A stretch of 64,000 bases of DNA, taken from assembly GCA_910575005.1 (NCBI GenBank), contig CAJTCL010000010.1:1-64000 (forward strand), written 5' to 3'. Below, piece by piece: positions 7,689 to 13,665 of this stretch. This stretch comes from Lachnospiraceae bacterium (GTDB lineage: Bacteria; Bacillota; Clostridia; Lachnospirales; Lachnospiraceae). A program made the translations under genes and the position numbers. Each line of letters opens with the position of its first letter. Position 1 is the stretch's first letter. Below the pieces are notes generated by a model. The model ran no database searches. It was not told the DNA's origin and saw only the letters and a list, made by a program, of their open reading frames with translations.

Positions 7689-9290
7689 ATGAAACTTGAG
7701 TTTTTAGGGGCGGCTCATGAAGTTACAGGAAGCTGTCACTATCTGAAAATCGGTGACATCAACCTTTTGGTTGATTGTGGTATGGAACAGGGCGCAGATT
7801 TGTATGTCAATCAGGAGATACCAGTGAATGCAACGCAAATTGATTTTGTATTGGTAACACATGCGCATATTGACCATTCAGGGCTTCTGCCCTTGTTGTA
7901 CAGCCACGGATTTCGGGGAAGCATCTATGCAACCAAGGCGACGACAGAGCTTTGTAACATTATGCTGAAGGATTCCGCGCATATTCAGATGTTTGAGGCT
8001 GAGTGGAAGAACCGCAAGGCCCGCCGTGCAGGAAAACCGCTGGTAGAACCTATGTACAATATGGAGGATGCGCAAGGGGTACTCACACATTTTATTCCCT
8101 GTGAGTATGAGGAGAAGATTACGCTCTGTCCTGAAGTGACAATTCGTTTTATTGATGCTGGACATCTACTGGGTTCTTCTAGTATAGAGGTGTGGGCTGA
8201 CGAGGGAGAAGATCAGGTGAAACTGGTATTTTCAGGTGATATTGGACCTGGTGACAGGCCTTTGATTCGTGATCCACAGTACATAAAAGAAGCAGATTAT
8301 GTGGTGATGGAGTCTACTTATGGAGACAGAATGCGCAAGCACCCGCCAGATTATGCCACAGAACTGGCAAAGGTCTGCCATGAGACTTTTACCAGAGGGG
8401 GAAATGTGGTGATTCCTGCATTTTCAGTAGGAAGAACGCAAGAAATGTTGTTTTTTTTGAGAAAGATCAAAACAGAAAATATGCTGCCTGAATTTGCAGA
8501 TTTTGAAGTCTATATTGACAGTCCTCTGGCAGTGGAGGCTACCAATATTTTTCATAAAAATGTCAGAGAGTGTTTTCGGGAACGAGCGTTACAACTGATT
8601 GAAAAGGGCATCAATCCCATTAGTTTTCCAGGATTGAAGATTGCTGTTACAAGTGACGAATCTAAGATGATCAATTTTATTCAAAAACCGATTGTCATTA
8701 TCTCTGCCTCTGGTATGTGTGAAGCTGGAAGAATCCGCCATCATTTAAAACATAATTTATGGCGGGCAGATTCAACAATTCTTTTTGTGGGCTATCAGGT
8801 GCCAGGAACGTTGGGCAATCATCTGCTGGACGGAGCCAAAGAGGTCAGGTTATTTGGGGAAACCATTGAAGTACGTGCACGAATTGCCAATCTTGCCGGA
8901 ATCAGCGGCCATGCTGACCAGGAACATCTGTTAAATTGGGTCAAAGCTTTTGGTCATTCACCGAAACGAGTTTTTGTTGTACATGGTCAGGACAGTGTCT
9001 GTGATGTCTTTGCTGATCTTGTGGAAAAAGAGACAGGTATTCAGACTTCAGCGCCTTACAGTGGGGATATCTATGATCTGAAGGCCAATACCTGTATTGC
9101 CAAAGGCAGCCGAGAACGTGTAGTAAAGAAAAAGAAGGATTCTCGTGTGGTTTCCAATGTATTTGCAAGGCTTGTGGCGGCGGGAGAACGTCTTTTAGCT
9201 GTGATCCGCAAATCAGAGGGGCGTCCCAACAAAGAATTGGGCAAGTTTGCAGATCAGATCAATTCCCTCTGTGATAAGTGGGACCAATAG
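7689..9290 (+). CDS. MBL-fold hydrolase with beta-CASP and RMMBL domains (putative RNase)
   Basis: A 533-residue protein with the metallo-beta-lactamase signature HAHIDHSG near residue 58 and a downstream GHLLGSSS metal-ligand segment, an inserted beta-CASP domain, and the C-terminal RMMBL motif with SGHADQ. This architecture is shared with CPSF73 and bacterial exo/endoribonucleases of the YmdB/YsdB-like COG1236 group, so an RNA processing role is likely, though the substrate is unknown. The ATG at 7689 follows GGAGGCGGGG. Its last 32 bases overlap the convergent sigG gene. Confidence 0.88.
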   Translation: MKLEFLGAAHEVTGSCHYLKIGDINLLVDCGMEQGADLYVNQEIPVNATQIDFVLVTHAHIDHSGLLPLLYSHGFRGSIYATKATTELCNIMLKDSAHIQMFEAEWKNRKARRAGKPLVEPMYNMEDAQGVLTHFIPCEYEEKITLCPEVTIRFIDAGHLLGSSSIEVWADEGEDQVKLVFSGDIGPGDRPLIRDPQYIKEADYVVMESTYGDRMRKHPPDYATELAKVCHETFTRGGNVVIPAFSVGRTQEMLFFLRKIKTENMLPEFADFEVYIDSPLAVEATNIFHKNVRECFRERALQLIEKGINPISFPGLKIAVTSDESKMINFIQKPIVIISASGMCEAGRIRHHLKHNLWRADSTILFVGYQVPGTLGNHLLDGAKEVRLFGETIEVRARIANLAGISGHADQEHLLNWVKAFGHSPKRVFVVHGQDSVCDVFADLVEKETGIQTSAPYSGDIYDLKANTCIAKGSRERVVKKKKDSRVVSNVFARLVAAGERLLAVIRKSEGRPNKELGKFADQINSLCDKWDQ

Positions 9291-10305: not shown

Positions 10306-10854
10306 ATGAAGGATGCTATTGATAAGAGAAACGAGAGAGAAAAAATTGCGAAGAGTATTGTGAAACGTAGGAACATCGTATATACCAGTAAGGAAGAGTT
10401 AGAGCGCAGAGAGCAAGAAGAGAAGCGTCAGGAAAACCGTGAAGCTGCGGAAGAGATGGTTAAGAAATTAAAAGAAGATGAACATAATAAGCAGGCAATG
10501 CAGATTCAAAGGCTGCTGGCAGAACAGCAAATGTTGGAACAGCAGCTAAAAACAGGTATGGATGCAACAGGAAAACATCCAATGGATGATGTAACCCAGG
10601 AGAGAGTAGAGGCGATTTTAAGTGAGAAAAGTAAACAGCTTCAAGATATCATTGCTGCCCACAATGTGGAGAACAGGCAAGAAGATCAGACGTTGGAGCC
10701 GGCAGTATCAAAAAATCATGAACCGCATGGAACCCACACAGAAGAAGGAGCTGCACAGACAGATATACAGGATGCGGCGCCAGTCGTACAATCGGATTTG
10801 CCAGATATGGAAGTGCTGCTTCCAGAAGAAGAGGGGGATATAAGCTATGAATAG
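10306..10854 (+). CDS. Unknown charged coiled-coil protein
   Basis: A 182-residue, highly charged, cytoplasmic protein that I do not recognise. Residues 1-85 are Lys/Glu/Arg-rich with heptad-like spacing (ELERREQEEKRQENREAAEEM), predicting a long alpha-helix or coiled coil. A linker with TGMDATGKHPMDD follows, then an acidic, Pro/Gln/Glu-rich tail. AGGAGA precedes the ATG. The end overlaps the next small gene by eight bases, which indicates translational coupling. It is divergent from sigG, but no sporulation link is shown. Confidence 0.7.
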   Translation: MKDAIDKRNEREKIAKSIVKRRNIVYTSKEELERREQEEKRQENREAAEEMVKKLKEDEHNKQAMQIQRLLAEQQMLEQQLKTGMDATGKHPMDDVTQERVEAILSEKSKQLQDIIAAHNVENRQEDQTLEPAVSKNHEPHGTHTEEGAAQTDIQDAAPVVQSDLPDMEVLLPEEEGDISYE

Positions 10855-11256: not shown

Positions 11257-12102
11257 ATGACTCAGGTGACACTGAAGAAATACCACGGTTTGGGCAACGA
11301 CTATCTGGTATTGGACCCCAATAAAAATGAATTAGCTCTACAAACTAGAAATATTGAAATGTTGTGCCGAAGGAATTTTGGAGTAGGTGCGGACGGGCTT
11401 TTGTATGGTCCAATTTTGGAAAATGATAAAATCAGAGTACGGATTTTTAACTCTGATGGTTCAGAGGCAGAGCGAAGCGGCAATGGTGTCCGTATTTTTG
11501 CAAAATATCTGTTGGATGAAGGGTATGTCCAAGATAAAAAGTTTACTTTGGATATGTTGGCCGGTGAAGTGGAAGTCGAATTTTTACAACAGGATGGAAG
11601 TTTAATGAGGGTCAAGATGGGAAAACCAGTATATGCTGGCACACAGATGCCTCTGACTGGTTTGGAAGGAGAAATTGTCAACGCTCATCTGCGTTTTGAA
11701 GATAATATTTATAATACAACCTGTCTGTCTGTGGGAAATCCCAACTGTGTCATCATGATGGAAGAGGTGACACCACAGAAAGCAAAAGATCTTGGTCCCT
11801 ATGTAGAGCAAGCTTCTTATTTTCCCAATCGAATCAATATGCAGATCTGCAAGGTGATAGACCGCGAAAATCTTGTGATTGAGATTTATGAGCGTGGTGC
11901 TGGCTATACACTTGCTTCCGGTACAGGAGCTTGTGCGGCGGCGGCAGCAGCAAGGCGTATGGGACTTGTCGATGAAAAGGTTGTCGTTCACATGCAGGGC
12001 GGAGATTTAACAGTTGAGATTGACCAGACAAATACCATTTATATGACTGGAAGTGTAGAAAAGGTGGGGACGTTTACAGTGGCGGAGAATTTTTTTGCTT
12101 AA
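11257..12102 (+). CDS. dapF: DapF-family isomerase with both catalytic Cys replaced by Ser
   Basis: A 281-residue member of the diaminopimelate epimerase fold, which is two pseudo-symmetric halves with one catalytic residue each. The N-terminus KKYHGLGNDYLVLD and the segment RRNFGVGADG are typical. In classical DapF the acid/base pair is two cysteines, in xCGNGxR and xCGTGxCA. Here the positions read AERSGNGVRIF (Ser74) and LASGTGACA (Ser221), so both are serine. It may be a divergent DapF, a racemase acting on another amino acid, or a different isomerase. The ATG at 11257 is chosen because GGAGGG lies nine bases upstream; an earlier ATG at 11224 lacks a ribosome binding site. The annotation as DAP epimerase should be treated as family-level. 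Confidence 0.8.
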   Translation: MTQVTLKKYHGLGNDYLVLDPNKNELALQTRNIEMLCRRNFGVGADGLLYGPILENDKIRVRIFNSDGSEAERSGNGVRIFAKYLLDEGYVQDKKFTLDMLAGEVEVEFLQQDGSLMRVKMGKPVYAGTQMPLTGLEGEIVNAHLRFEDNIYNTTCLSVGNPNCVIMMEEVTPQKAKDLGPYVEQASYFPNRINMQICKVIDRENLVIEIYERGAGYTLASGTGACAAAAAARRMGLVDEKVVVHMQGGDLTVEIDQTNTIYMTGSVEKVGTFTVAENFFA

Positions 12103-12453: not shown

Positions 12454-13665
12454 ATGCAAACCCTTATATCATTACACAAGAATTATACTTTGAATGGGGA
12501 AGGATATCAACTAAAACTTCTCTTAAATTTAGAAACAATTATTCTGGTAGATGATTCTGTGCGATTACTGAGTCAGTTTGTGGAGGCCATGGATTTAACT
12601 GATTTATATCCTACTTACAAAAGAATAAATACGTTTTCTCCAAGAACTCTCCTGAAGATTGTTTTGTACTCATACATGAATGGTGACTATTCCTCCCGCT
12701 CTATGGAGCTTAACTGTAAGCGGGATATTAACTTTATGTATCTTTTAGAAGGAAAGCCAGTTTGTGACCACGCCACTTTTGCACGGTTTCGTAGCATTCA
12801 TTTTGCTCCATGCGCGAAACGCATTCCCGCTGAAATGTCCCACCTTCTTTATGATCTCGGGGAAATCTCAGGGGAAACGATTTTTATTGATGGCACAAAA
12901 ATCGAGGCTTGCGCCAATAGATATACATTTGTTTGGAAAAAGGCTGTCACAAGAAACCAGGGAAAAATGTTGATAAAAATCGCTGGCCTCATTGCCGAAT
13001 GTGAGCAGCTTTACGGGATTCGGATTGTCCATGGAGATACCGTCAAAATGAAACATGTAAAACGGTTGCGCAAAAAACTGTATGCATTAAAACAGGAGGA
13101 AAACATTGCGTTTGTACATGGAATAGGCAAGAGAAAATCTGCGCTGCAAAAGAGCATTGAAACACTGGAAGGTTACCTGGGGCGTTTGAGCAGAAATGGG
13201 AAAAAACTATCGTTTGCATATGTACGCTGGTCAAAGTCAAAAACAGGGTATGCCAGCGAAAAAAGTATTTATCAATGTAGCGAATGTAAAGGCTGCCCTT
13301 ACAAAAAGGACTACATCAAAGGGAATAACTGCAAAACGCCAATGGAAGAACGCAACAAGGTTCTTTCTGTGGCAAAGACATTTCTAAAGTATCGAAAAAA
13401 GGATTTGGAGAGGATTGTCTCTGAGGAAGGAATTCTGCTTTGTACAAACAGGAGCATCCAGGCGGAAGGTTCTTTTGGCGAGTTGAAACAGGACATGCAG
13501 TTCCGAAGATATTTGAGTCGGGGTACACCAAATGTTCTTGCCGAAAGTGTTTTACTTGCAATGGCAAGAAATGTGAACAAGCTTCATAATAAGATACAAA
13601 AAGGAAGAATAGGTGTGTTAAAGTGCGTCCTTTTTTATTTCAGGACAACTTTTCTAATAGAATAG
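12454..13665 (+). pseudogene. IS1182-family transposase lacking its central catalytic region
   Basis: A 403-residue open frame whose N-terminal DUF772-type domain runs to about residue 240 and holds the first catalytic Asp (IFIDGTKIEA, D146). The C-terminal part, with the CxxCxxCPYK zinc segment and NRSIQAEGSFGELKQD (third acidic residue), is also present. Known IS1182 transposases are about 480-560 residues and have the second Asp in a VADxGY segment between these parts. That segment is missing: the sequence passes directly from EGYLGRLSR to NGKKLSFAYVR, near 13190. The deletion kept the frame. The copy is therefore probably inactive. Confidence 0.8.

Follow-up and report, generated by a model that had tools for sequence, protein, structure and literature searches.

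A clade of DapF homologues with serine in place of both catalytic cysteines, found in Lachnospiraceae and other bacteria of the phylum

INTRODUCTION

The chemistry of diaminopimelate (DAP) epimerase, DapF, is based upon a thiol–thiolate pair, in which a proton with a pKa of about 29 has to be abstracted by a weak base (PMC12039745, in its accessible text). Single substitutions of the catalytic cysteines in the DapF-like racemase PddB leave <0.1% activity, and a similar loss for Cys-to-Ser DapF is cited in the accessible part of the same report (PMC8225329). The deposited entries 2q9h and 2q9j are single mutants of H. influenzae DapF, with serine in place of Cys73 in one and of Cys217 in the other.

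Several enzymes share the DapF fold with the protein described here and have altered substrates. These are DcsC (O-ureidoserine racemase, 7vdy, 30% identical to it), PddB, CntK and HisR. In the available accounts PddB, CntK and HisR use a cysteine pair, as presumably does DcsC, where our protein has a serine pair; PddB is described there as an accessory paralogue that accompanies a DapF presumed to be the housekeeping enzyme, and in this it resembles our protein. DapF2 is an alanine-racemase-type PLP enzyme, unrelated in fold to DapF. A PLP-dependent DAP epimerase proposed for staphylococci, it is like the present clade in that, according to the available text of PMC9026213, the proposed replacement of DapF was placed by gene neighbours and co-occurrence.

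Natural serine at a catalytic position is found in the proline racemase superfamily, whose members act on other substrates and carry Ser/Cys or Ser/Thr pairs, with no Ser/Ser pair in the parts of the literature examined. Among enzymes of this fold, PMC4113996 describes a 4-hydroxyproline epimerase with a Ser/Cys pair and a dehydratase with a Ser/Thr pair, so serine can act as a base in this architecture. The serine at the first catalytic position is common to these enzymes and to our protein (Ser74); they are nevertheless a separate sequence family, and our protein scores 19.6 bits against PF05544 (Pro_racemase), below the cut-off of 27. No description of a Ser/Ser racemase or a Ser/Ser DapF was found in the literature searched, a scope outside which most subscription journals lay. 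Here we describe a DapF homologue with such a pair, encoded in the window (the whole analysed stretch of 64,000 nucleotides of DNA from a gut bacterium of the Lachnospiraceae), together with its relatives.

RESULTS

Serine at both catalytic positions

The gene encodes a protein with the two-domain fold of DapF, and its scores against the DapF profiles (Table 1) lie above both cut-offs (114.65 bits, curated, for TIGR00652 and 34.7 bits for PF01678). In the profile alignment Ser74, in the motif AERSGNG, and Ser221, in LASGTGACA, stand at the places of the two catalytic cysteines, and the coordinates, frame and numbering given for them in a preliminary description made from the sequence alone are right. 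The cysteine of the PROSITE active-site signature, as quoted in the accessible part of PMC8225329, is likewise absent. Since cysteine is lacking at both catalytic positions, the protein is not filed here as a DapF.

Three other cysteines that are conserved in the clade (C37, C156 and C226) were considered as substitutes and rejected, as Arabidopsis DapF has cysteine at the same three places; no new catalytic cysteine was seen on comparing the clade alignment with Arabidopsis DapF.

Table 1. Positions of the DapF homologue, its marked residues and other genes in the window
Feature	Position	Strand	Remarks
Beta-CASP metallo-beta-lactamase protein	7689-9290	+	best NCBIfam: type VII CRISPR Cas14 415 bits (cut-off 800), aCPSF1 307 (580); both below
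182-aa gene, upstream; also beside the Ser gene in several relatives	10306..10854	+	cluster in 31/80 related loci (best 80 of 552)
Ser/Ser DapF homologue gene	11257..12102	+	281 aa, intact frame; TIGR00652 240.2 bits, PF01678 192.8 bits
Ser74 codon AGC	11476..11478	+	at catalytic Cys73 of H. influenzae DapF; Ser in 117/119 clade sequences
Tyr217 codon TAT	11905..11907	+	clade-specific residue, 119/119; canonical DapF mostly Glu/Ile/Leu/Ala
Ser221 codon TCC	11917..11919	+	at catalytic Cys217 of H. influenzae DapF; Ser in 115/119
IS1182-like transposase, downstream, context only	12454..13665	+	PF13751, PF05598 over cut-off; NF033551 165.8 bits, below 270

DAP-contact residues and selection

All six DAP-contact residues are present in the window protein; in H. 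influenzae numbering we take these to be Asn11, Asn64, Asn157, Asn190, Glu208 and Arg209. The matches to N11, N64, N190, E208 and R209 are invariant (119/119 clade sequences). Asn157 is the loosest of the six, being kept in 113/119 sequences of the clade and in 74/79 of canonical DapF. The alpha-carboxylate-binding loops are preserved. Against this background the clade is marked, in contrast to DapF, by I80 (canonical Cys), E209 (Arg/Lys), Y217 and M246 (Leu), and further by G51-P52 and Y9.

Comparison of the window gene with its nearest named relative (L039, 93% identical) gives dN/dS of 0.03 (NG86) and 0.04 (YN00). In five further NG86 comparisons dN/dS was 0.03-0.06 for three, where dS was saturated, and could not be usefully estimated for the other two. 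Serine 74 is encoded by AGY in 114/119 sequences and by TCN in 3/119, while codon 221 is TCN in 115/119. From the kept DAP contacts and the low dN/dS the clade looks active and directed to DAP.

The serine pair follows a separate clade

At the two catalytic positions the 119 distinct clade sequences have Ser/Ser in 113 cases, Ser/Thr in three, and Ser/Asn, Gly/Ser and Cys/Ser in one each. The other DapFs (79 distinct sequences) comprise 77 Cys/Cys, one Ser/Cys and one Cys/Asn, the last being a canonical-clade protein of G270 (L137) with cysteine at the first and asparagine at the second position. The 198 sequences were thinned to 103 for a tree, rooted at the midpoint only, which sets the clade apart from other DapFs by a 100/100 branch (45 versus 58 rows), and the window protein does not group with Cys/Cys DapF. 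The earlier proposal of a distinct subgroup is borne out by this branch and by the residue counts, and mapping of the two positions upon the tree shows that the serine pair tracks the separate clade. The first branch inside the clade is the Cys/Ser protein of genome G219, which would fit replacement of the second cysteine ahead of the first, an order that depends upon the midpoint root.

The clade is separated from other DapFs in profile searches by a clean gap in score. In an order-level sample 5/246 genomes match at >=367 bits, all with Ser/Ser, after which the score drops to 262 bits for a Cys/Ser protein; in a phylum-level sample, which shares some genomes with the former, 8/398 match at >=371 bits, again all Ser/Ser, and the next scores 268. 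Within the sample of the window's own family a clade-level match (E <=1e-60) occurs in 38/200 genomes, with residues checked in 37 of the 38 (G092 left out). Among the whole genomes searched outside the family nine have a Ser/Ser gene (G203, G706, G743, G517, G764, G679, G786, G859 and G864), and both serines are kept in all nine proteins in the tree. A scan of named genomes counted 552 relatives, residue types unsorted, of which the best 80 were kept; by title these are mostly Lachnospiraceae (Roseburia, Blautia, Hespellia, Acetitomaculum and others), together with Clostridium cibarium.

Among plasmid records 43 match, all at <60% identity, and the eight listed are 34-39% identical, two of them naming dapF. 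One contig filed as viral matches (L264:2923-3765, + strand), with a product that shares 82% identity with the window protein; this may be bacterial DNA. Matching solved structures comprise 17 distinct sequences, named DapF or O-ureidoserine racemase, and no clade member is apparent among them, the identities listed by Foldseek being <=38%. A Ser-clade protein of G028 (L253:7356-8198, - strand) has glycine at position 74 and alanine at 222, and is possibly a degenerate member.

Other DapF genes and the DAP pathway in the same genomes

The genome of the window contains three genes that match PF01678. In addition to the Ser/Ser gene there is a second DapF on contig C6, with AEMCGNG and TLACGTGACA and thus a Cys/Cys pair, adjoining a DapL-like aminotransferase gene. 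The third match is weak and below cut-off, in an ORF that we take to encode a PhzF-like protein. The two checks suggested at the outset, for a second dapF and for ddh, therefore gave a Cys/Cys copy and no match to ddh (TIGR01921, profile search), respectively. In this genome murE, with a DNPR motif, and dapB are over cut-off, and the lysA match is below it (282.7 against 297.9 bits). More generally, there are at least two DapF matches in 38/38 genomes of the family sample with a clade-level match, the second being counted as a match irrespective of residue type.

In four of the nine genomes outside the family (G203, G706, G517 and G764; 90-97% complete) the Ser/Ser gene is the sole match to TIGR00652 (E 0.001); the other five have two. 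No ddh over cut-off was found in these four, with weak partial matches of ~20 bits in G517 and G764. All four have MurE over cut-off with the DNPR motif, which we take as a mark of meso-DAP ligases. A lysA match is present in all four, over cut-off in three and below it in G203, and dapB is over cut-off in three of the four, being partial in G764; G706 is without dapB over cut-off. Lysine synthesis via LysA needs meso-DAP, so these bacteria must either have an enzyme that produces it or import it. For such an enzyme the Ser/Ser protein is the obvious candidate, and with DapF2 known in other bacteria this is suggestive and not conclusive.

Gene neighbourhoods

In two genomes of different genera (G743 and G859) the Ser/Ser gene lies on one strand in the order TrmB-type regulator, LysA, Ser/Ser DapF and DapL. 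The flanking genes score 372 and 364 bits for LysA (cut-off 297.9) and 657 and 620 bits for DapL (cut-off 585) with the NCBIfam equivalogs, while the regulator was identified by Pfam in G743 and by likeness in G859. In these, the best contexts, the Ser/Ser gene sits where DapF should sit. LysA and DapL are both found within 5 kb at these two loci only, out of 104 (105 sources given, with L196 dropped for want of a match over threshold; some genomes may occur twice), and so in two of the nine genomes outside the family.

The remaining arrangements are varied. The lysA gene of G219 has a lysine riboswitch before it (75.9 bits against a gathering threshold of 30), both on the same strand as the Cys/Ser gene, which follows ~1.3 kb past lysA behind two other frames. 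No lysine riboswitch was found in the window at the gathering threshold, the only hit being a tRNA. Genes other than lysA and dapL flank the Ser/Ser gene in G203, G706, G679 and G786, and in G517, G764 and G864 it is located on short contigs; no DapL lies near it in the stretch of G864 examined, and in G764 lysA adjoins dapA. In G119 and G149 the Ser-clade gene is followed by a canonical dapF and then by a DapL gene, and in G046 it overlaps the end of a D-Ala-D-Ala ligase gene.

The commonest partner seen in the window's family is a divergent AraC-type regulator, lying <=5 kb away in 41/104 loci and <=400 bases away in 39/104. No divergent AraC-type gene over 90 bits is found beside the Ser/Ser gene in the window or in its closest relatives, L039 and L040. 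An ArgRS gene in the same orientation occurs within 5 kb in 36/104 loci, which we read as local gene order. Aspartokinase (<=5 kb on the same strand in 5/104 loci) was given little weight, as three of the five share one layout behind a prfB-like gene; in L081 the latter was identified from its N-terminus and is presumably prfB-like.

In G054 (L250:4609-8299, + strand) an adenylation-type enzyme and an aminotransferase-like gene precede the Ser-clade gene, with ABC-transporter-like genes following; the adenylation-type and transporter genes were assigned by likeness, and this is possibly a small biosynthetic cluster. Within the window, the 182-aa gene has no Pfam or NCBIfam match, and it adjoins a sigG-type sigma factor gene.

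Fused relatives

A 537-aa frame in G219 (L266:2689-4302, - strand) encodes both a CysK-like PLP enzyme and, fused to it, a DapF-like domain that is closer to the Ser clade (174.7 versus 106.0 bits). This domain has alanine at position 74 and no longer has the Gly-Asn loop there, but retains the second site and the distal DAP residues. In G245 (L265:4190-8245, - strand) the large subunit of carbamoyl-phosphate synthase is fused in frame to a Ser/Cys DapF. Among the matches listed, 16 including this one lie in open frames of 1,175-1,404 aa, the fusion partner being checked in L265 only.

DISCUSSION

The gene is a real, conserved and ancient variant of dapF, and its serines may perform chemistry that is thought to need cysteines. 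From the observations above we infer a substrate and a reaction, a role for the serines as an acid/base pair, and the manner of regulation. The window protein belongs to an ancient subfamily that is sister to DapF, in which a DAP-like diamino diacid is predicted to bind in the usual cleft between the two domains. The alpha-carbon proton would then be transferred by one serine on each face, Ser74 and Ser221, replacing the two cysteines. Elsewhere in the phylum the protein is, in some lineages, most likely a DAP epimerase working at the step that links DapL to LysA. Members of the window's family have it in addition to another DapF, in many cases alongside a divergent AraC-type gene, and there its role may be conditional or altered.

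The lysA-dapF(Ser/Ser)-dapL operon of two genera, taken with the retained DAP contacts, makes a link of the clade to DAP or a DAP-like compound likely, and the doubt raised in the preliminary description over the dap label is on the same evidence less well supported. The wider reading, serine-based chemistry at the alpha proton with DAP epimerisation in some lineages, is one that we favour tentatively, at a little short of an even chance. The stricter version is somewhat less probable, namely that the Ser/Ser pair alone catalyses a cofactor-independent 1,1-proton transfer at the alpha carbon of an amino acid. The protein would then be a cysteine-free DAP epimerase, on which some bacteria rely as their only DapF and which many gut Lachnospiraceae have as an accessory copy under separate regulation. 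Counting against the reading we favour are the <0.1% activity of the PddB mutants, the second DapF match in 38/38 family genomes and in five of the nine outside it, the presence of LysA with DapL at only 2/104 loci, and the change of Ser221 to threonine (three) or asparagine (one) and of Ser74 to glycine (one) among 119 sequences. To these are added the existence of DapF2 in other bacteria, the 90-97% completeness of the Ser-only genomes, and the failure of dapB in G706 and lysA in G203 to pass cut-off.

The tolerance of threonine and asparagine at position 221, with serine at position 74 in 117/119 sequences, would also be consistent with a distinct reaction on a DAP-like substrate, by a dehydratase, a lyase or another isomerase. 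Ser74 would then take the alpha proton while residue 221 only aids binding or departure of a leaving group, as in the Ser/Thr trans-3-hydroxyproline dehydratase; the accessible texts of PMC4113996 and PMC4364671 describe the Ser/Thr enzymes of this fold as dehydratases with one catalytic serine. The clade-specific Y9, I80, E209 and Y217 hint at an altered site, and some loci adjoin aminotransferase-like or AMP-binding-like genes or Ddl and not lysA. However, the epimerase step itself is indicated by the operon with lysA and dapL and by the genomes in which the Ser/Ser gene is the sole DapF match, and both serines are kept in all nine Ser/Ser proteins from whole genomes outside the family, so that we regard a distinct reaction as rather unlikely.

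Somewhat less probable again is a non-catalytic, DAP-binding protein that serves as a sensor, as a partner of canonical DapF, or in a moonlighting role of the kind suggested by E. coli DapF, which binds RppH (PMC4227774, accessible part). The near-complete inactivity reported for the cysteine mutants of PddB would fit such a role, as would the universal second DapF match in the family sample, the AraC-type gene within 400 bases at 39/104 loci, and the complete loss of the first site in the relative fused to a CysK-like enzyme. It would leave near-invariant serines on both faces and intact alpha-carboxylate loops hard to explain, and four genomes have no other DapF match. Plain loss of activity, one of the three options in the preliminary description, is disfavoured by the strong purifying selection and the near-complete conservation of both serines, and keeps a small probability because a few members have Asn or Thr for Ser221 or Gly for Ser74; the option of a serine pair is the one now preferred. 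The original interpretation is supported in part.

An ordinary DapF misread through an error of sequencing or assembly, or a decaying pseudogene, is refuted by the 113/119 distinct Ser/Ser sequences from many assemblies, by the dN/dS of 0.03-0.04 and by the intact frame, and a check of 30 proteins (the window protein included) found serine at the first position in 30/30 and at the second in 27/30 (two Thr, one Asn).

For annotation, the Ser/Ser proteins that were scored lie above the cut-off of the DapF equivalog, and annotation by that model would label them diaminopimelate epimerase. Cysteine-alkylating inhibitors of DapF, for example aziDAP, would presumably not act on them. A natural and conserved Ser/Ser clade, located in part within a DAP operon, would mean either that hydroxyl groups can work here without a cofactor, or that a new reaction is carried out on DAP-like compounds.
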